From: Acidobacteriota bacterium
GTDB taxonomy: Bacteria > Acidobacteriota > Thermoanaerobaculia > Gp7-AA8
Reading direction: 5' to 3'
Length of the DNA stretch: 64,000 bases
NCBI GenBank assembly: GCA_019244185.1
Contig: JAFATB010000014.1
Location: 313,587 to 377,586, forward strand
Of the stretch, positions 35,508 to 47,439 are shown piece after piece; the stretch's first letter is position 1; every line of letters starts with the position of its first letter. The notes below the pieces were generated by a model. The model was not told the DNA's origin, ran no database searches, and saw only the letters and a program-made list of their open reading frames with translations. A program made the translations under genes and the position numbers.

Positions 35508-35526
35508 GCCCGACGCCGCGCGATTG

Positions 35527-37875
35527 ATGCGCAACGTCATCCGCTACGCGATCGCGGTCGTGACGACGGCCGCGGCCATCGCGCTCACGCACGGTCTGGC
35601 GGCGTTCCTCGCGCCGATGCGGCTCTTCTTCCTGTGGGCGGCGGTGCTGACCACCGCGGTTGTGGCGGGCACCGGACCGGCGATCGTGTCGATCGTGATC
35701 TGCTGCTTCGCGGCGGCGTTCCTGATCCTGCCGCCGCTCGGCTCGTTCGCGGTGCACAGCATGCTCGACGCGGTGCGGCTCGCGCTCTTCGCCTCGTTCG
35801 CGACCGGCATCAGCATCGCCGTCGGCGCGCGCCGACGCGCGGAACAGCGCGCGGCGGCGGCGAACGAACGGCTCGCGCGGAGCGAGCTGCGCTACCGCAC
35901 GCTCGTCGAGTCGGCGCCGTCCGCGCAGGCGCTGTGGCGCGCGACGTCGGACGGCCGCATCGAATGGTCCGACGAATGGGGCGCGATCATCGGGCAGACG
36001 CGCGAGGAGTTCGAGGCCGGCGGCCGCGCGCGCGTCCTGCATCCGGACGACTCCGCGCGCACGATCGCGCTGTGGCGCGCGGCGCGCGACACCCGCACCG
36101 CCTACGAGGACGAGATCCGCGTGCGCGTGGCGAACGGCCGCTATCGCTGGTTCACCATCAAAGCGGTGCCGGTGTTCGACGGCGCCGCTCTGCGCGAATG
36201 GATCGGCGTCACCGCCGACATCCACGAGCGCAAGCAGCACGAGGAGCACGCGGCGTTCATCAATCGCGCGACGGAGGTGCTGTCGGCGTCGCTCGATTAC
36301 GAAGAGACGCTGCGCAGTTTCGCGCGGCTGTGCGTGCCCGCCCTCGGCGACTGGTGCGCGATCGACATCGTGCGCGACGCCGGACCGTACCAGCGCCTCG
36401 TCGTCGAGCACACCGATCCCGCGCGCGTCGAGCTCGCGTTCGAGCTGGACCGCCGTTTCCGTCCCGCGCCTCAGGTCGACCCGGTGACGCGCGCGCTCGC
36501 GAGCGGCAGGACGCAGTTCCTCGAGACGATCACGGATGCCGATCTCACTTCCATCGCGCGCGACGCCGAGCATCTCGCGCTCGCGCGCGGACTCGGGCTG
36601 CGCTCGTCGATCATCGCGCCGATGATCGCGCGCGGGCGCACGTTCGGCGCGCTCGTGCTCGTCACGGGCGAGTCGGAGCGGCATTACGGTGAAGACGATG
36701 TGGCGTTCGTCGAAGACCTCGCGCGGCGCGCGGCGATGGCGCTCGACAACGCGCGCCTGTACGAGGCAGCCGAGGCGGGGAGCCGCGCGAAGGACGAATT
36801 CCTGGCGACCCTCTCGCACGAGCTGCGCACCCCGCTCACCGCGATCGCGGGCTGGGCGCACATGCTCCACCTCGGCCTCGCCGACGAGCAGTCGACGCGC
36901 ACCGGCATCGAGACGATCCTGCGCAGCGCGCGGCAGCAGGGAGAGCTCATCGACGATCTGCTCGATCTCGCGCGCGTGGCGTCCGGCACGCTGCACCTGC
37001 AGTTCGCGCCCGCGGACCTGCGCTCGATCGCGGGCGAAGTCGTCACGGCCGTGCGTCCGACTGCCGAGGCGAAGTCGCTCGCGCTGGCGTTCGACGCGGA
37101 CGCGCCGGCGGTGCTCGTGCGCGGCGACGAGCGGCGCCTGCGCCAGATCGTCTGGAACCTCGTGTCGAATGCGGTGAAGTTCACGAAGAGCGGCGGCAGC
37201 GTGCGCGTGACGCTGACGACGCGCGACGGCCATGCGCGCGTCGACGTGACCGACAGCGGCCGCGGCGTCGATCCGGCGTTCCTGCCGTATGTCTGGGATC
37301 GTTTCCGGCAAGCCGACAGCAGCACGTCGCGCGAGTTCGGCGGCCTCGGGCTCGGCCTGTCCGTGGTGCGCCATCTCGTCGAGCTGCACGGCGGCACGGT
37401 GCACGCTTCGAGTCCCGGCATCGGAGGCGGCGCGACGTTCGGCTTCGAGGTGCCGCTGCTGCGCGACGGCGAAGAAGAGGCGAGCGCGCCGCGTGCGAAG
37501 GCGTTCGGCGAGCTGCTGCGCGGGCGTCGCGTGCTGGTCGTCGACGATGATGACGACGCGCGGGTCGTCATCGCGAAGATGCTCGAACAGGCCGGCGCGG
37601 CGACGACGCCGGCGAGCTCCGCCGCGGCGGCGATGGAGGCGGTGCGTCGCGAGCGCTTCGACGTGATCGTCAGCGACATCGCCATGCCGGGCGAAGACGG
37701 GTACGCGTTCGTGCGGCGCGTCGGAACGGTGGCGCGCGTGCCGGTGATCGCGGTGTCGGCCATCGCGACCGGCGACGACGACCGCCGCCGCGCGCTCGAC
37801 GCCGGCTTCGCCGAGTTCCTCCGCAAGCCGGTCGATCCGCAGCAGCTCGCCGCCGCGGTGGCGCGCTGTCTTTGA
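35527..37875 (+). CDS. Hybrid sensor histidine kinase (DUF4118-like, PAS, GAF, HK, receiver)
   Basis: About 782 residues. Three or four N-terminal membrane segments resemble the KdpD/DUF4118 region (RLFFLWAAVLTTAVVAGTGP). Then a PAS domain (YRTLVESAPSAQALWRATSD to GVTADIHERK), a GAF domain (about 245-405), a HisKA/HATPase core with phosphorylation site LSHELRTPL (His near 432), N-box WNLVSNAVKFTKSGG, G-boxes DSGRGVDP and GLGLGLSVV, and a receiver domain (VLVVDDDDDARV, Asp in VSDIAMPGEDG near 716, K in RKPVD). No DNA-binding output is attached, so a separate response regulator is expected elsewhere. It starts 19 bases after the ETF-QO stop; ATG 35527 is used, not the TTG before it. Confidence 0.93.
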   Translation: MRNVIRYAIAVVTTAAAIALTHGLAAFLAPMRLFFLWAAVLTTAVVAGTGPAIVSIVICCFAAAFLILPPLGSFAVHSMLDAVRLALFASFATGISIAVGARRRAEQRAAAANERLARSELRYRTLVESAPSAQALWRATSDGRIEWSDEWGAIIGQTREEFEAGGRARVLHPDDSARTIALWRAARDTRTAYEDEIRVRVANGRYRWFTIKAVPVFDGAALREWIGVTADIHERKQHEEHAAFINRATEVLSASLDYEETLRSFARLCVPALGDWCAIDIVRDAGPYQRLVVEHTDPARVELAFELDRRFRPAPQVDPVTRALASGRTQFLETITDADLTSIARDAEHLALARGLGLRSSIIAPMIARGRTFGALVLVTGESERHYGEDDVAFVEDLARRAAMALDNARLYEAAEAGSRAKDEFLATLSHELRTPLTAIAGWAHMLHLGLADEQSTRTGIETILRSARQQGELIDDLLDLARVASGTLHLQFAPADLRSIAGEVVTAVRPTAEAKSLALAFDADAPAVLVRGDERRLRQIVWNLVSNAVKFTKSGGSVRVTLTTRDGHARVDVTDSGRGVDPAFLPYVWDRFRQADSSTSREFGGLGLGLSVVRHLVELHGGTVHASSPGIGGGATFGFEVPLLRDGEEEASAPRAKAFGELLRGRRVLVVDDDDDARVVIAKMLEQAGAATTPASSAAAAMEAVRRERFDVIVSDIAMPGEDGYAFVRRVGTVARVPVIAVSAIATGDDDRRRALDAGFAEFLRKPVDPQQLAAAVARCL

Positions 37876-38034
37876 GGAACCTCTGCACGAGTCGGAGCCG
37901 TGCCGTTGCGGCGGCGCTGCGCCGTCTGCCGCGCCGTCGCTCCTCAGCGATATCCCGCATCGCCTCGTCGCGACGACTCGCATCCGTCACAGCGGCGCCC
38001 GCAACGGCATGGCTCCGACTCGTGCAGAAGTTCC
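37876..38034. repeat. 159-bp element with about 45-bp terminal inverted repeats
   Basis: The left arm (37876-37919) and right arm (37990-38034) are near-perfect reverse complements: GGAACCTCTGCACGAGTCGG against GGAACTTCTGCACGAGTCGG on the other strand, continuing through GAGCC(G/A)TGCCGTTGCGG with two substitutions and one small indel near the inner end. The homology extends outward as TTTGAGGAAC / TTTTAGGAAC. The inner 70 bases are GC-rich and not obviously coding. It begins right after the kinase stop codon and ends about 60 bases before moxR. It may be a MITE-like insertion, a giant hairpin terminator, or a structured RNA. Confidence 0.8.
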
Positions 38035-38093
38035 TAAAATAAGCCGGGCACGGAATTCGTTACCTCGTCGACCTGCGCGACGTAAACATCACG

Positions 38094-39052
<959 letters not shown>

Positions 39053-39056
<4 letters not shown>

Positions 39057-40108
39057 ACCGCGCGCTCGCGGCCGCCGTCGTGCTGCTCGCGGCGCTGCCG
39101 CTGCACGCGCACGATGACGACGCGCCGCGCGCGGATCCGAAGATCGTTGCGTACGCGCTGAGCTCACCCGAGCGCGCGTGGAACTTCATCACGGCGCCGG
39201 AGTCGGCATACGCGGAGCGGCTCGCGGTCGCGCGCGAGGCGGCGACGAAGTTTCCTCTGGCGGCGTTAGTGCCGCGTTACTTCGAAACCAGCGGCGTGAC
39301 GGCGGAGCGGTATCCGGAAGAGCGGCCGAATGGCGTGCACAGCTACGAGGTCCGCGCGGACGTCACTCCGGTGATCGACCTCGCTCCGCATGTGGTGTCT
39401 TCGCGGTCGACCGGTCGTCCGCTGACGTTCGCCGAACGCGCGCGCCAGCCGTGGCAGCAACAGGTCTCCGACGCCGCAGCCGCGTACTGGCAGACGCTGC
39501 AGCGCACGCGGACGGCGGACGACTGGTACGCGTACGCGCGCACGCTGCCGTGCCGCTCGCGCGTGGACGTGGCCCGTTTCCGCCAAGTCGTGCGAGCCGG
39601 GGCCATCCATGCGGACGTTCCTCCCGACGACATCGCCGGCGCGTGGCGCAATCTCATCCGCCGCTCCGGCGCCGAGGTGGAGTGGTCGGCCGATGACGTC
39701 TTCCGCAATCCGCGCGGTCGCGAAGCGATGGCGGCGCTGCTGCTGCTCGAGCTGGTGAAACGCGATCACGTCTACGAGGCCGCGTTCTACACCGGCTACA
39801 TGACCGGCATCCCCGCCGCGGAGCCGCTGCGCGATGCGGTCGCGTACGAGGCCGGCCGGCGCATTCTCGCGAACAGCGAGATCCGTTCGTACGAGCGCGC
39901 CACGGGCGGCTTTCTGCTCGCGAAGATGTACGGCGACATGCTCGCGCCGTACGACGACACGCTGTTCGAAGCGAAGCACGCAGCGCTGATCGCCGCTTTC
40001 ACGCGTTGGTTCGCCGCGCACGAGGAGACGCTCGCCGCACGCGCGCGCCTTGCAGCGCCGGCTATCGCCGCCGCGGAGGCGCGCTACACCTCGGAGCTCT
40101 GCAAATGA
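39053..40108 (+). CDS. Secreted protein of unknown function, first of two tandem paralogues
   Basis: A 351-residue protein with a signal peptide (ALAAAVVLLAALPLHAHD). The mature part is mostly helical: ADPKIVAYALSSPERAWNFI, YAYARTLPCRSRVDVARFRQ with one cysteine, PPDDIAGAWRNLIRRSGAEV, and a C-terminal helix-rich block ending ARYTSELCK. No known domain is recognised. Start GTG 39053 overlaps the moxR stop (GTGA). Position between moxR and DUF58 suggests a role in the MoxR-assisted envelope complex. It is about 1,050 bases long, the period of the duplication that made its neighbour. Confidence 0.82.
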
Positions 40109-41163
40109 GACGCGCGCTCGCGGCCGTCTTCGTGATCCTCGCGGCGCTGCCGCTGCACGCGCAGGATGACGATGCGTCGCGCGCGGATCCGAAGATCGTC
40201 GCGTACGCGCTGAGCTCCACGGAGCGGGCGTGGAACTTCATCACGGCGCCGGAGTCCGGCTACGCGGAACGGCTCGCCGTCGCGCGCAAGGCCGCGCTCG
40301 CGCTGCCGCTGTCGTACCTTCCGCGATACTTCGCGGCGCGCGACGCGACCAACGGCCGCTGGTACGTGCAGATGCCGCCGGAAAGCGCCTTTGCCACGGT
40401 CTACATTCCTCAGCCGCACGGCACGATCGAGGTCCTCGGACATCTGTTCCAGGTGCCGGAGAAGCTGATTCCGTTTCCGAGGACATTCGAAGAGCGCGCG
40501 CGTACGCCGTGGCCGTGGCAGGTCTCCCGCGCGCTGGCGGAGTACTGGCAGGAGCTCGTCCGCCATCGGCCCGCGGACGAACTGTTCGCGTACGCGCGCA
40601 CGATGCCGTGTCGGTCGGACGAGGAGCAGCGGCGGTTCCTCGACATCACGTATCTCTCGCTCGTTTTTCCGGCGGTCGCGCCGGACGACATCGAAGGTGC
40701 GTGGCGCAACATCGTGCGCCGTCAGGAGGGCGGTGCCGCGATCCTCGTCAACGGCGCGATTCCGGCACAGGGACGGGAGATGCTCGTCGCGCTCGTTGCG
40801 CTGGAGCTCGCGCGGCAGGACAAGGTCAGCACCGCCGCGTTCCATCTGAAAACGCTCGTTTCGGATGTGGATGATGCGGACGTACGCGACTTTCTCGCCT
40901 ACGAGATCGGCCGCCGCATCGTTGCCAATCGCGCCATCTCTCTCGACGAGAGAGCCGACGCCGGCTTCATGGTCGCTTGGACGTACGACGACAAGCTCAT
41001 TCCGCTCGAGAAGCGCTACAGCAAAGAACTGTACCCGGCGCTGATCGCCGCGTTCACGCAATGGTTCGCCGCGCACGAGGAGACGCTCGCCGCACGTGCG
41101 CGACTCGCGGCGCCGGCCATCGCCGCCGCGGAGGCGCGCTACACGTCGGAGCTCTGCAAGTGA
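40105..41163 (+). CDS. Secreted protein of unknown function, second of two tandem paralogues
   Basis: A 352-residue paralogue of the preceding gene. Signal peptide (ALAAVFVILAALPLHAQD). The first ~45 mature residues (RADPKIVAYALSSTERAWNF) and the last 33 (from WFAAHEETLAARARLAAPAI to SELCK) are almost or fully identical to the first copy, while the middle 200 have drifted strongly, keeping anchors such as YARTMPCRS and PDDIEGAWRNIVRR. The shared single cysteine in PCRS and the C-terminal cysteine may pair. ATG 40105 overlaps the previous stop (ATGA). Function unknown. Confidence 0.82.
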   Translation: MRRALAAVFVILAALPLHAQDDDASRADPKIVAYALSSTERAWNFITAPESGYAERLAVARKAALALPLSYLPRYFAARDATNGRWYVQMPPESAFATVYIPQPHGTIEVLGHLFQVPEKLIPFPRTFEERARTPWPWQVSRALAEYWQELVRHRPADELFAYARTMPCRSDEEQRRFLDITYLSLVFPAVAPDDIEGAWRNIVRRQEGGAAILVNGAIPAQGREMLVALVALELARQDKVSTAAFHLKTLVSDVDDADVRDFLAYEIGRRIVANRAISLDERADAGFMVAWTYDDKLIPLEKRYSKELYPALIAAFTQWFAAHEETLAARARLAAPAIAAAEARYTSELCK

Positions 41164-42149
41164 GCTTCGAGTTCAACGGCGTCGTGCGCCTCACGCGCAT
41201 CGGCACGACCTACATCCTCTCCACGATCGTCCTCGCCGTGGCCGCGCTGAACACGGGCAACAACGCGCTCTACATCGCCGTGTCGTTCATGCTCGGCTGC
41301 CTGCTGCTCTCCGGCATGGCCTCGCGCGGCGGACTGAAAAGCATCACCGTCGAAGTCGGCGGCATCGGCGAGGCGTGGGCGGAACATCCCGCCGACGGCA
41401 CGCTGCGCGTCCGCAACCGCTCGCGCATCTGGAACGTGCGCGACGTCGTGCTCGTCTCCGACAGCCTCGCCGCGCCGGTGCTGATCCCGCTCCTGCCGCG
41501 CCGCGCCGAACGGCTCGTGCCCGCGTCGTTCCTCTTCCATCGCCGCGGCCTCGCGCGCGTCACCGCCGTCGACTCGTACACGCGCTATCCGTTCGGCTTC
41601 TTTCTCAAGAAGCGCCGCCTGCGCGTCGCCAGCGAAGTGGTCGTCTTTCCGAAGATCCTCGCGAACGCGGCACTCGAAGAACGCTACCGCGCCGTCGCGG
41701 GCGAGGACGCGGGCTCGCAGCGTCCCGGCGCCGGCTCGGAGATCCACGCGTTCCGCGAGTACACGCGCGGCGACTCGCTGCGTCACGTGCACTGGAAAAA
41801 GTCCGCGAGCCTCGGCCGCTGGATCATGAAGCAGACCGAGCTCGAGTCCGCGCGCTCGGTGCACGTGGTCGTCGATCCGTACAAGCCGCGCGAGGTCAGC
41901 GACGCGGCGTTCGAGGAGATGATCAGCGCCGCGGCGACATTCCTCCTCGATGCCTCGCGCCGCGGCGCCGACGTCACGCTCTCGCTGCCGCGCGTCGACC
42001 TCCGCGCGCGCTCCGGCGAGTCCGCCGCGCCGCTCTTCCGCGCGCTCGCGCTCCTCGAGCCGCGCTTCGAGCCGCTGCACGCGACCATCGATCGCGACAC
42101 CGTCTTCTTCTCGGCCGCCGGAGGGACTCGTGTCCAGCAAAGCGCGTGA
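41160..42149 (+). CDS. DUF58 domain membrane protein
   Basis: A 329-residue protein. Two short N-terminal membrane segments (YILSTIVLAVAALN, ALYIAVSFMLGCLLLSGMA), a beta-rich middle (RVRNRSRIWNVRDVVLV), and the DUF58 signature EIHAFREYTRGDSLRHVHWK followed by KSASLGRWIMKQTELE. DUF58 proteins accompany MoxR ATPases and are thought to carry a VWA-like fold. Start GTG 41160 overlaps the stop before it; its own stop lies 20 bases inside the next gene. Confidence 0.92.
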   Translation: MSFEFNGVVRLTRIGTTYILSTIVLAVAALNTGNNALYIAVSFMLGCLLLSGMASRGGLKSITVEVGGIGEAWAEHPADGTLRVRNRSRIWNVRDVVLVSDSLAAPVLIPLLPRRAERLVPASFLFHRRGLARVTAVDSYTRYPFGFFLKKRRLRVASEVVVFPKILANAALEERYRAVAGEDAGSQRPGAGSEIHAFREYTRGDSLRHVHWKKSASLGRWIMKQTELESARSVHVVVDPYKPREVSDAAFEEMISAAATFLLDASRRGADVTLSLPRVDLRARSGESAAPLFRALALLEPRFEPLHATIDRDTVFFSAAGGTRVQQSA

Positions 42150-44106
42150 GCTCGAGGCGCTGGCGCTGCCGACGTTCGCCGCGGTGCCGCTGTATCTCAC
42201 GGCCGCGATCGGCGTGCTGCCGCTGATTTTCTTCCACGTGGTGATGCTCGGCATCGCCGTGCGCGTCGCCTCCGGACGCGGACCCGATCTCTTCCCCGCG
42301 CGCCTCATGCGCTGGATCGCCGTCGCCTACGTGCCGTTCTACGTCGTCGACGCGGCCGTGCTCTCGCGCAGCGCGATCGCGGCGTCGACGCACCTCGTGC
42401 TCTTCATCGCCGCGTATCAGCCGAGCGAGTCGGTGCTCCGCCAGAACCACGCGCAGCGGATGCTCACCGCCGCGCTCATCGCCGTGGCAAGCCTCGCGAC
42501 GTCGACGCACATCACGGTGGTGCTGTTCGTGATCGGCTTCGCGTTCCTGATGTTCCGCCAGCTCGTCTTCGCGAGCCACGCGGAAACGATGCGCTCCCTC
42601 GGCCGCACCTACGAGGACGCGCCGTCCGGCCGCGCGGCGCTCTTCTATCTCACCGGCGCGACGCTCATCGGCGCACTGCTCTTTCCGCTCCTGCCGCGCG
42701 TGCGCAATCCGTTCATGCAAGGCATCACCGGCTCGCTGCCCGGCGCGACGACCGCGCTCAGCGAGACGATCGATTTCCGCGAGCCGCGCGTGACGCCGGG
42801 CGATGCCACCGTCGTCGCGCGCATCTGGATGAACGAGCGCACCGCCGCGCTGTTCACGCCCGTGCGCCTGCGCGGGACGCTGTACGACCACTGGGACGGC
42901 GGCGAATGGATCCAGTCGTTCCGCGGCCTGCGCGAGGTCGTGCCGCACGGCGGCGTCTATCAGGTCGAGAAACCCGGCGGCGAAGTCCGCGACGCGGTGA
43001 TCCAGCTGCGCCCGCAGCAGGGCCGCCTTTATCTCCCGTCCGGCACGTTTGCGATGACGGGCATCAACAGCCTCTACGAAGGTCCCACGCGCGGCGCGTA
43101 CTACACGTACCAGAACGGCACGCTGAATTTCGATCTGCGCCTCGCCACGGAAACCGCGCCGCTGCGCCCGCAACGCATCCGCCCCACCGGTTATCCCATT
43201 CGCCCGGAGATCGCCGCGCTCGCTCACGGGATCATTGGCAACGAGCAGCGCCCCGAACGCCGCGCGCGCCTCATCGAGCAGTGGATGCTCCGCAACTTCC
43301 GCTACGTGCCGAACCCCGCGACGCCCGACCACCCGATGACGGTCGACGATTTTCTGCTGCACGTCCGCGCCGGCCACTGCGAGTACTTCGCCGCGGGTAT
43401 GGTCGTGCTGCTGACCGCCGTCGACGTGCCCGCGCGCATCGCCGGCGGTTTCTACGGCGGCCGCTACAACCCGCTCGCGCGCTACTACACGCTGCGCCGC
43501 GAGGACGCGCACGCATGGACGGAAGTGTGGGACGGCGCGCGCTGGCAGACGTTCGACTCGACCCCGCCCTCCCTCCGCCCCGGCAGCGACGCGCCGTCCG
43601 CTCTCCGCGCGTATTTCGCCGCGCTCGCCGATTCGGTCACCTACGTCTGGGACCGCTACGTCCTCACCTTCGGTCTCTCGGATCAGATCGCACTCTTCTC
43701 CGACCTCTTCACGTGGATCCGCGACGCCGCCGCGGTCGTCCGCCTGCACGCGATGACGGCGACCGAATCGGCCTCGTCTCTCGCCTTACCTCTCACCGCA
43801 CTCGCATTGCTCGCTCTCGCAACGACGCTCCTGCTCCGCCGCCGGCGCGGCGTCTTCGATCTCCTTGCCCGCGCCCTCGCCGAACGCGGCGTCGCCATCA
43901 CGCCGTCGATGACGGTCGAAGACGCACTGCGCGAACTGCGCACCCGCGACAAAGCATCCGCCGACGCGCTTACTCCGCTCGCCGCCCTCTACGAACAAGC
44001 CAAGTTCTCGCGCGATCCTGCGCGCGTACGCCGCCGCGACTTCCGACGGAGGCTGGAAGCCGACGAGGAGCGCCTCCGGCGGGCCGGCGCGGCCGGCAGC
44101 GCTTAG
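42130..44106 (+). CDS. Transglutaminase-like membrane protein, TgpA type
   Basis: A 658-residue protein: six or so N-terminal membrane segments (DUF3488-like), a periplasmic transglutaminase domain and a last membrane segment (LPLTALALLALATTLLL) followed by a cytoplasmic tail (DUF4129-like). The catalytic triad is readable as Cys in RAGHCEYFAAGMVVL (about 416), His in EDAHAWTEVW (about 460) and Asp in TFDSTPP (about 476). TgpA-type proteins work with MoxR and DUF58 proteins at the envelope. GTG 42130 is chosen for the GGAGG five bases before it. The last 13 codons are supplied by a long inverted-repeat element. Confidence 0.93.
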   Translation: MSSKARELEALALPTFAAVPLYLTAAIGVLPLIFFHVVMLGIAVRVASGRGPDLFPARLMRWIAVAYVPFYVVDAAVLSRSAIAASTHLVLFIAAYQPSESVLRQNHAQRMLTAALIAVASLATSTHITVVLFVIGFAFLMFRQLVFASHAETMRSLGRTYEDAPSGRAALFYLTGATLIGALLFPLLPRVRNPFMQGITGSLPGATTALSETIDFREPRVTPGDATVVARIWMNERTAALFTPVRLRGTLYDHWDGGEWIQSFRGLREVVPHGGVYQVEKPGGEVRDAVIQLRPQQGRLYLPSGTFAMTGINSLYEGPTRGAYYTYQNGTLNFDLRLATETAPLRPQRIRPTGYPIRPEIAALAHGIIGNEQRPERRARLIEQWMLRNFRYVPNPATPDHPMTVDDFLLHVRAGHCEYFAAGMVVLLTAVDVPARIAGGFYGGRYNPLARYYTLRREDAHAWTEVWDGARWQTFDSTPPSLRPGSDAPSALRAYFAALADSVTYVWDRYVLTFGLSDQIALFSDLFTWIRDAAAVVRLHAMTATESASSLALPLTALALLALATTLLLRRRRGVFDLLARALAERGVAITPSMTVEDALRELRTRDKASADALTPLAALYEQAKFSRDPARVRRRDFRRRLEADEERLRRAGAAGSA

Positions 44107-44219
44107 GGCTTAGCCAGTACTCACGTGCGGCTGCGATCAACGTCGTTCACGGCAGCCGCACGTGCGGATCGGCTAAGCCCTAAGCGCTGCCGGCCGCGCC
44201 GGCCCGCCGGAGGCGCTCC
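44067..44219. repeat. Long palindromic element, copy A (49-bp perfect inverted repeat)
   Basis: Arms 44067-44115 and 44171-44219 are exact reverse complements over 49 bases. Inside, after a 6x6 mismatch (AGTACT / CGGATC), a second perfect 13-bp stem holds CACGTGCGGCTGC (44122-44134 / 44152-44164) around a 17-base loop. The whole forms a hairpin of about 62 paired bases. The left arm covers the last 13 codons and the TAG stop of the transglutaminase gene; the right arm ends 12 bases from the end of pdxJ, which converges on it. Copy B lies at about 47289-47439. It could act as a terminator for both strands. Confidence 0.9.
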
Positions 44220-44231
44220 CGGTCGGTCTCC

Positions 44232-46535: not shown

Positions 46536-47348
46536 ATGCGCATGCGACAGCGGATCGCTCTCGTCCTCGCGCTGCTCTTCCTCGTGGCGGGCGGCGCGCT
46601 GTTCGTGTTCGGCCGCGGCCTGTGGCTGCCGCTGCTCATGCGCATCACCGGCGAGCGCACGGTCGCCGACGTGCTGGCGAAGATCGGGCCGGCGGCGCGC
46701 GCGCAGCTGCGGCCGTCATTCGCGCACGCGGGCGTCGCGTATCCGCCGCGCGAGCTCGCGCTGCTCGTCTTCAAGCGCGAGCGCCGCGTCGCCGTATGGG
46801 CACGCGATGCCGGTGCGTGGCGTTTCATCCGCGCGTATCCCGTCTTCGCCGCCAGCGGACATGCGGGCCCGAAGCTGCGCGAAGGGGACTACCAGGTGCC
46901 CGAAGGGCTGTACCGCTTCGCGTGGCTCAATCCGAACAGCAGCTAGCACCTCTCGATGAAGGTGAGCTACCCGAACGCCTTCGATCTGGCGATGGCCAAA
47001 CGCGACGGCCGCACGCGCCTCGGCGGCGACATCTTCATGCACGGCAATGCGCTGTCGATCGGCTGCATCGCGGTGGGGGACGCCGCGATCGAACAGCTCT
47101 TCACGCTGGTGGCGGATACCGGTCTCGCGCGGACGCGCCTCGTGATCGCGCCGAACGATCTCCGCGTGGGCGGTGCGATCATCGACGACGGCGCGCCGCC
47201 GTGGGTGGGGCAGCTGTATCGCACCATCGCCGCCGCCCTCGCGGAGTTCCCCGTCGCGCTGGAATCGAACAGCGCCGTGCGCGTCGACGGGTCGGCCCGG
47301 CCGACAAACGCTAAAGACCTAGTCCTTTCCCACGTGCGGCTGCCTTGA
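46536..47348 (+). pseudogene. L,D-transpeptidase (YkuD/YafK-like) interrupted by an in-frame TAG
   Basis: The frame runs from ATG 46536 through a membrane anchor (IALVLALLFLVAGGALFVFG) and the N-terminal YkuD part (ELALLVFKRERRVAVWARDA, EGDYQVPEGLYRFAWLNPNS) to TAG at 46944-46946. It then continues in the same phase with HLSMKVSYPNAFD, GGDIFMHGNALSIGCIAVGD, the catalytic HGNALSIGCIA-type box (His, Ser-x-Gly-Cys). In relatives the interrupted spot reads S-Y-H-L-S, so TAC (Tyr) to TAG is the simplest change. The catalytic half lies after the stop. Without readthrough only an inactive 136-residue fragment would be made. The end (after GSARP) is encoded by palindromic element B. Confidence 0.85.
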
Positions 47349-47439
47349 ATGTCATTGAGGGCCAACCGCACGTGCGGATAGGCTGTGCCCTTAGCGCAGC
47401 CGGCCGTGCCGGCCCGGCAGGAATGGCTGGAGGCGCTCC
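47289..47439. repeat. Long palindromic element, copy B
   Basis: Related to the element at 44067-44219. The right half (CCGCACGTGCGGATAGGCTG, CCCTTAGCGCAGCCGGCCGT, GCCGGCCCG) is about 90 per cent identical to the right half of copy A; the left half is degenerate but still pairs (47331-47344 with 47361-47374, then looser pairing outward). Before the outer GGAGGCGCTCC (47429-47439) it has an extra piece of about a dozen bases. It covers the last codons and the TGA of the broken L,D-transpeptidase gene and ends 19 bases before the ABC-F start. Confidence 0.82.

Follow-up and report, generated by a model that had tools for sequence, protein, structure and literature searches.

In the window, by which we mean the whole analysed stretch of 64,000 nucleotides, a histidine kinase gene (35524-37875) and a MoxR-type gene (38094-39056) are separated by a 159-bp inverted-repeat element at 37876-38034. 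The inverted repeat announced in the preliminary description is real: the arms (37871-37911 and 37999-38039, 41 nt each) are 93% complementary, the borders read TTTGAGGAAC and GTTCCTAAAA as given there, and the first arm base at 37876 abuts the TGA stop codon of the kinase gene (37873-37875, forward strand), which agrees with the start at the kinase stop stated earlier. The 24-base arm end occurred twice in the window, once per strand, with 0 occurrences expected. Within the arms lie 18-bp terminal inverted repeats, GGAACCTCTGCACGAGTC at 37876-37893 on the forward strand and its counterpart at 38017-38034, which reads GGAACTTCTGCACGAGTC on the minus strand and was delimited by arm pairing and the arm-end occurrences. 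The leader of the MoxR-type gene (38037-38093, forward strand) follows as the right-hand neighbour and is similar in relatives from about this point.

Folding of the 172-nt strand gave −113.5 kcal/mol against a shuffle mean of −64.9 (z = −11.7), and no shuffle was as good. The minus strand, which carries G.A internal loops near the tip of the hairpin and is referred to as the G.A strand, was more stable than its complement both with RNA parameters (−127.2 versus −110.8 kcal/mol) and, in the same direction, with DNA parameters (−71.6 versus −67.7 kcal/mol). Short antisense reading frames overlap the element and showed no coding support in the codon score. The element is thus short and non-coding and bounded by terminal inverted repeats, the form of a MITE. 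Its independence in sequence from the A and B elements, also proposed earlier, is borne out by a covariance model of the hairpin, which matched this one place only in the window. Two further repeat features were seen nearby: tandemly duplicated genes with a spacing of about 1.05 kb at 39054-41183, and a second family of long palindromes at 44055-44231 and 47309-47416, with about 40 copies in the same genome. The former of these two palindromes has 88-nt arms separated by 1 nt and takes in the final ~50 bases of the preceding gene together with its stop codon.

A single copy with no relatives would, according to the preliminary description, have spoken against a mobile element. The genome-wide search gave a different picture. 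The genome of origin (5.3 Mb, 26 contigs) holds four full copies at unrelated sites, namely the window copy and relatives at C15:22667-22830 (84%), C26:213254-213419 (81%) and C11:23258-23419 (70%), and in addition a mini-hairpin at C26:374873 that consists of the ends only. Several dispersed copies per genome, here four full and one ends-only, are what is expected of a MITE. At C7:320939 the same core was found with wholly different arms.

A candidate source of the mobility was found in the same family. The 18-bp ends GGAACCTCTGCACRAGTC, which comprise the left repeat given above, have their match in genome G014, next to a fragment of an IS5-family transposase: there the end GGAACCTCTGCACAAGTCGA, preceded by CTAG, adjoins a fragment with DUF772 and DDE_Tnp_1 domains. 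NCBIfam assigns this fragment to the IS5 family (NF033581, 258 bits versus a cut-off of 140). A single end of this insertion sequence is preserved; the fragment continues in frame into a Y1_Tnp-like (IS200/RAYT-like) domain (locus L077, 1-1541) and the other end is lost. In the genome of origin there was no match to the G014 transposase, and the end sequence, searched with up to 3 mismatches, always lay in a short element of this kind and never beside a transposase. Distant IS5 relatives on plasmids have the same end type behind CTAA or similar tetramers, and MITEPsy1 of Pseudomonas syringae, thought to derive from the IS5 family, has 18-nt ends and the target CTAG or YTAA (PMC3189936), so that the ends belong to a known kind. 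GGAACC-type (IS5-type) ends were also seen around other interiors, or around none, in G004, G017 and a contig of Gemmatimonadota (L076, L078, L080, L082). The earlier suggestion of a MITE with its transposase elsewhere is supported by the dispersed copies, the shared IS5-type ends and the matching transposase in G014, with none found in the genome of origin. We regard the identity of the element as a MITE, and its mobility, as well supported.

The insertion sites agree with such ends. Relatives are placed on CTAG/YTAR targets, frequently exactly on the stop codon of a gene; most of the TGGCCTGT elements are flanked by CTAG on both sides, as is the GGAACC-ended element of locus L079 in G004 (CTAG/CTAG). 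In the genome of origin, flanks are imperfect (TTGA/TAAA, CTAA/CTGA and CTAA/TAAC), the first pair being that of the window copy, which shows no clean duplication; given these imperfect repeats, the copies are probably old. Of the 37 elements whose ends are defined, 17 carry a neighbouring gene's stop codon at one edge or at both, and in most of these the register is exact. At one site in G014, several element-free relatives have CTA or CTAG in the same place as the terminus of the corresponding gene, which by eye encodes a nucleoside diphosphate kinase; read on the opposite strand, these letters are a TAG stop. Insertion on a TAG stop, followed by its restoration through target duplication, explains the stop-codon pattern without special targeting. 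In genome G002 (L263), a gene end whose G014 relative bears an element shows the apparent end of a different, CTAG-flanked element. CTAG itself is rare, with 7 occurrences in the window against 65.5 expected; three of the seven stand in a row at 2528, 2545 and 2562, 17 bases apart.

Relatives of the locus inform on the history of the window copy. Similarity to the MoxR leader begins at 38037 in G017, at 38040 in G014 and at 38044 in G013, and further in from the edge of the element in other relatives of the family. In G017, G013, G001 and G014 (the last judged by eye) no such element lies upstream of the MoxR-type gene, and the stretch before that gene holds the end of an ETF-QO-type gene. The kinase gene of the window sits between the ETF-QO-type gene and the MoxR-type gene, which in G017, G013 and G001 follow each other directly. 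Possibly this lineage acquired both the kinase gene and the hairpin. In the joined-flank search, matches crossed the junction by at most about 10 bases, giving near-empty sites only, and no clean empty site was found in relatives for the window copy; the best near-empty site was that of the C26 copy, where G017 reads GGCATTC-TAAC.

These observations bear on the possibility that the hairpin does not move and acts in cis at this place, as a structured RNA or a terminator for the kinase operon or the MoxR operon. The position between both genes and the strong fold would suit such a role, as would the preference of related elements for the 3' ends of genes, with convergent neighbours at 18 elements and divergent ones at 5 (22 are co-oriented; all orientations are those of gene calls made by a simple codon score). 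The copies, however, stand beside unrelated genes, share their terminal repeats with an IS5 element and in relatives have CTAG repeats, and the element is missing before the MoxR-type gene in the four relatives named above. A U-run was not seen. Searches of Rfam 15 at the gathering score, which covered the window and 12 loci that carry relatives, returned no family, and a lax E-value added sub-threshold models only, nearly all of them miRNA precursors. Among the co-oriented cases, a hand count found the G.A strand 12 times with and 10 times against the direction of the genes, and this lack of bias speaks against a read-through RNA that would need one strand. We consider a fixed regulatory RNA of either operon very improbable.

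The roughly 70 bases between the arms had been described as GC-rich, apparently non-coding DNA; they are not featureless and contain the portion of the element that is conserved most widely. The interior is a module of about 100 nt (37906-38004, minus strand) in which two G.A internal loops follow each other in tandem close to the tip. Tip and loops together read AGGCGATGCGGGATATCGCTGAGGAGCG at 37938-37965 on the same strand and were recognized by their recurrence in other genomes, where the tip AGGCGATGCGGGAYATCGCTGAGGAGCG is found under different arms. As a loose pattern search for the core was too noisy, a covariance model was used instead. The first model was built from 12 inner hairpins and gives the window copy 99.9 bits, the window copy being itself one of the 12; a second model was used for the phylum search, and the E-values of the models are rough. 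The first model recovered the module from 11 of the 18 family genomes (72 matches in G004, 26 in G014, 19 in G012) and, at the level of the class, from 53 of 148 genomes, or 36 of 70 genera; in the phylum, the second model recovered it from 77 of 396 genomes, or 45 of 210 genera. In the class and phylum searches, the counts per genome are capped by the number of candidates scored. A weaker match of 42 bits lies at L203 948-1068 (G000:C16); the hairpin around it is 121 bp long and shows no recognised transposon ends, and one similar to it occurs in G010 (L200). Viral contigs had no match to the core 25-mer; the exact arm 16-mer had three matches there, none within a hairpin element. A literature search, thin on subscription papers, found no description of the hairpin cassette.

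At least eight different MITE ends enclose the module. Within the family, unlike ends around it include GGAACCTCTGCAC, TGGCCTGTAT, AGTGCCCC, TGCTCTGTCC, AGAGGCTGTGAAAAAATCC and TGTAGTGTTTCATTAATCC, and elsewhere in the phylum others occur, for example AGGAGCCTGTCCGAGAATAG, CTAGCAGCCCGTGGTGC and AGGGTCTGTGAGGAAATAAT; some of these ends may be related to one another. The window copy has a single module. Many relatives have two, head to head and joined by a CCnnnGG mini-hairpin, an arrangement that recalls REPINs; on this reading, a Y1 (RAYT) transposase would mobilise the paired inverted hairpins in the form of single-stranded DNA and the MITE ends would be incidental. The Y1_Tnp-like reading frame next to the IS5 fragment of G014 fits this idea, and REPs and REPINs resemble the present elements in being imperfect hairpins, often in inverted pairs and mostly intergenic. 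REPs, however, measure 20-40 bp and have an unpaired GTAG or CGTC tag (PMC3733652), whereas the present module is larger, at about 100 nt, shows no such tag (CGTC was seen by eye inside the tip stem only) and stands within DDE-type ends whose flanks carry CTAG target repeats. Movement of this kind is thus highly unlikely.

The fold of the module was examined in alignments. The 12 inner hairpins, aligned with MAFFT, gave a consensus of 28 pairs, 14 of which were compensated. In 55 distinct sequences, 92.4% of the cells paired, compared to 68.0% in shuffled and 24-52% in slid alignments; double-change cells numbered 304 versus 97 in shuffles, double changes affected 26 of the 28 pairs and the covariation score was 0.562 versus 0.173. 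A second set, 41 additional sequences drawn for the most part from different families and classes within the phylum, behaved in the same way, with 95.2% paired, double changes in 24 of 28 pairs and a covariation score of 0.590 versus 0.153. Both alignments were fitted to the structure and these figures lean high. Two internal loops adjoin the tip stem; in one, GA faces GA, in the other, GCA faces GA, and a single base pair lies between them. The G and A columns of these tip-proximal loops were 81-100% conserved in both sequence sets, while the intervening pair was C-G in 38, G-C in 6 and unpaired in 11 sequences of the first set and C-G in 26, G-C in 14 and A-U in 1 of the second. In the C11 copy and in a relative from G004, three GA/GA loops in succession can be read. 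Internal loops farther from the tip were less conserved (0.41-0.95), and the mean over all internal loops (0.70) was no higher than that of the helices (0.72), so that the claim of selection rests on the tip-proximal loops.

An ordinary IS5-derived MITE with a functionless interior could in principle give this picture, if the apparent covariation came from self-correction of the palindrome by template switching and the core were shared by descent and exchange among MITE families. Long palindromes do self-correct and can in this way keep their own arms alike. The ends, dispersed copies and target repeats are all ordinary, and neither the absence of strand bias relative to genes nor the average conservation of all loops asks for more. 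Self-correction should, however, erase mismatches, and yet across the phylum the letters of the tip-side G.A loops show 81-100% conservation, even as the pair enclosed by the two loops switches from C-G to G-C; moreover, the module outlasts the ends, with one fold under many end types. Conserved mismatches within covarying helices are not the expected outcome of self-correction, and from the sequences we therefore infer, as a strong inference, selection on the folded single strand. A functionless interior appears rather unlikely to us. The preliminary description had offered a large structured RNA as the alternative to a MITE; the choice between the two does not hold, since the evidence points to both together, a MITE with a covarying fold found across the phylum.

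We accordingly favour, with a probability of roughly 0.7, a MITE that is mobilised in trans and whose cassette is selected as a folded single strand, either RNA or single-stranded DNA. Given the IS5-family ends and their CTAG/YTAR target, an IS5 transposase, now absent from this genome, would move the element in trans and place it on tetramers of the CTAG/YTAR type, which are rare and some of which are stop codons. The cassette would be kept because one strand works in folded form. The fold might help the element to amplify, or it might make insertions behind stop codons harmless by 3'-end protection or termination. More tentatively, and with rather less confidence than an even chance would warrant, the cassette could represent a phylum-wide class of structured nucleic acid, whose G.A strand would be recognised in folded form by a factor of the host or the element and which would be captured under whichever transposon ends are active, outlasting them. 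The usual description of a bacterial MITE is that of transposon ends around a dispensable filler. In the present case this picture is reversed: the conserved part is the interior, one covarying hairpin under many ends throughout the phylum. If the fold is functional, it would constitute a mobile class of structured nucleic acid that is missing from Rfam, and the selection of a MITE for its interior would become testable. Placement on stop codons, finally, gives a simple account of how insertions are tolerated in compact genomes, CTAG being rare and the stop being restored by the duplication.

Among known systems, integron attC sites keep hairpin features while their arm sequence varies, and they are read as a folded single strand. 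The present module is similar in its kept hairpin features and varying arm sequence and differs in that no attC-type ends were seen by eye. With the IS5 family, in particular ISPa41-like elements, the 159-bp element shares the end type and a YTAR-like target; unlike these, it has no transposase, and its own genome shows none with these ends. End type and target are also common to MITEPsy1, an IS5-related MITE of 100 nt that probably derives from ISPsy2 (PMC3189936); no report of a conserved folded interior common to MITEs of other ends, as present here, was seen there. Correia/NEMIS, ERIC and RUP elements (PMC2229807) are mobile repeats of a similarly small size, about 100-200 bp, that also have terminal repeats; their transcripts form stem-loops. 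They are tabulated there, however, as single families per host group, whereas here one covarying module occurs under many different ends across a whole phylum.
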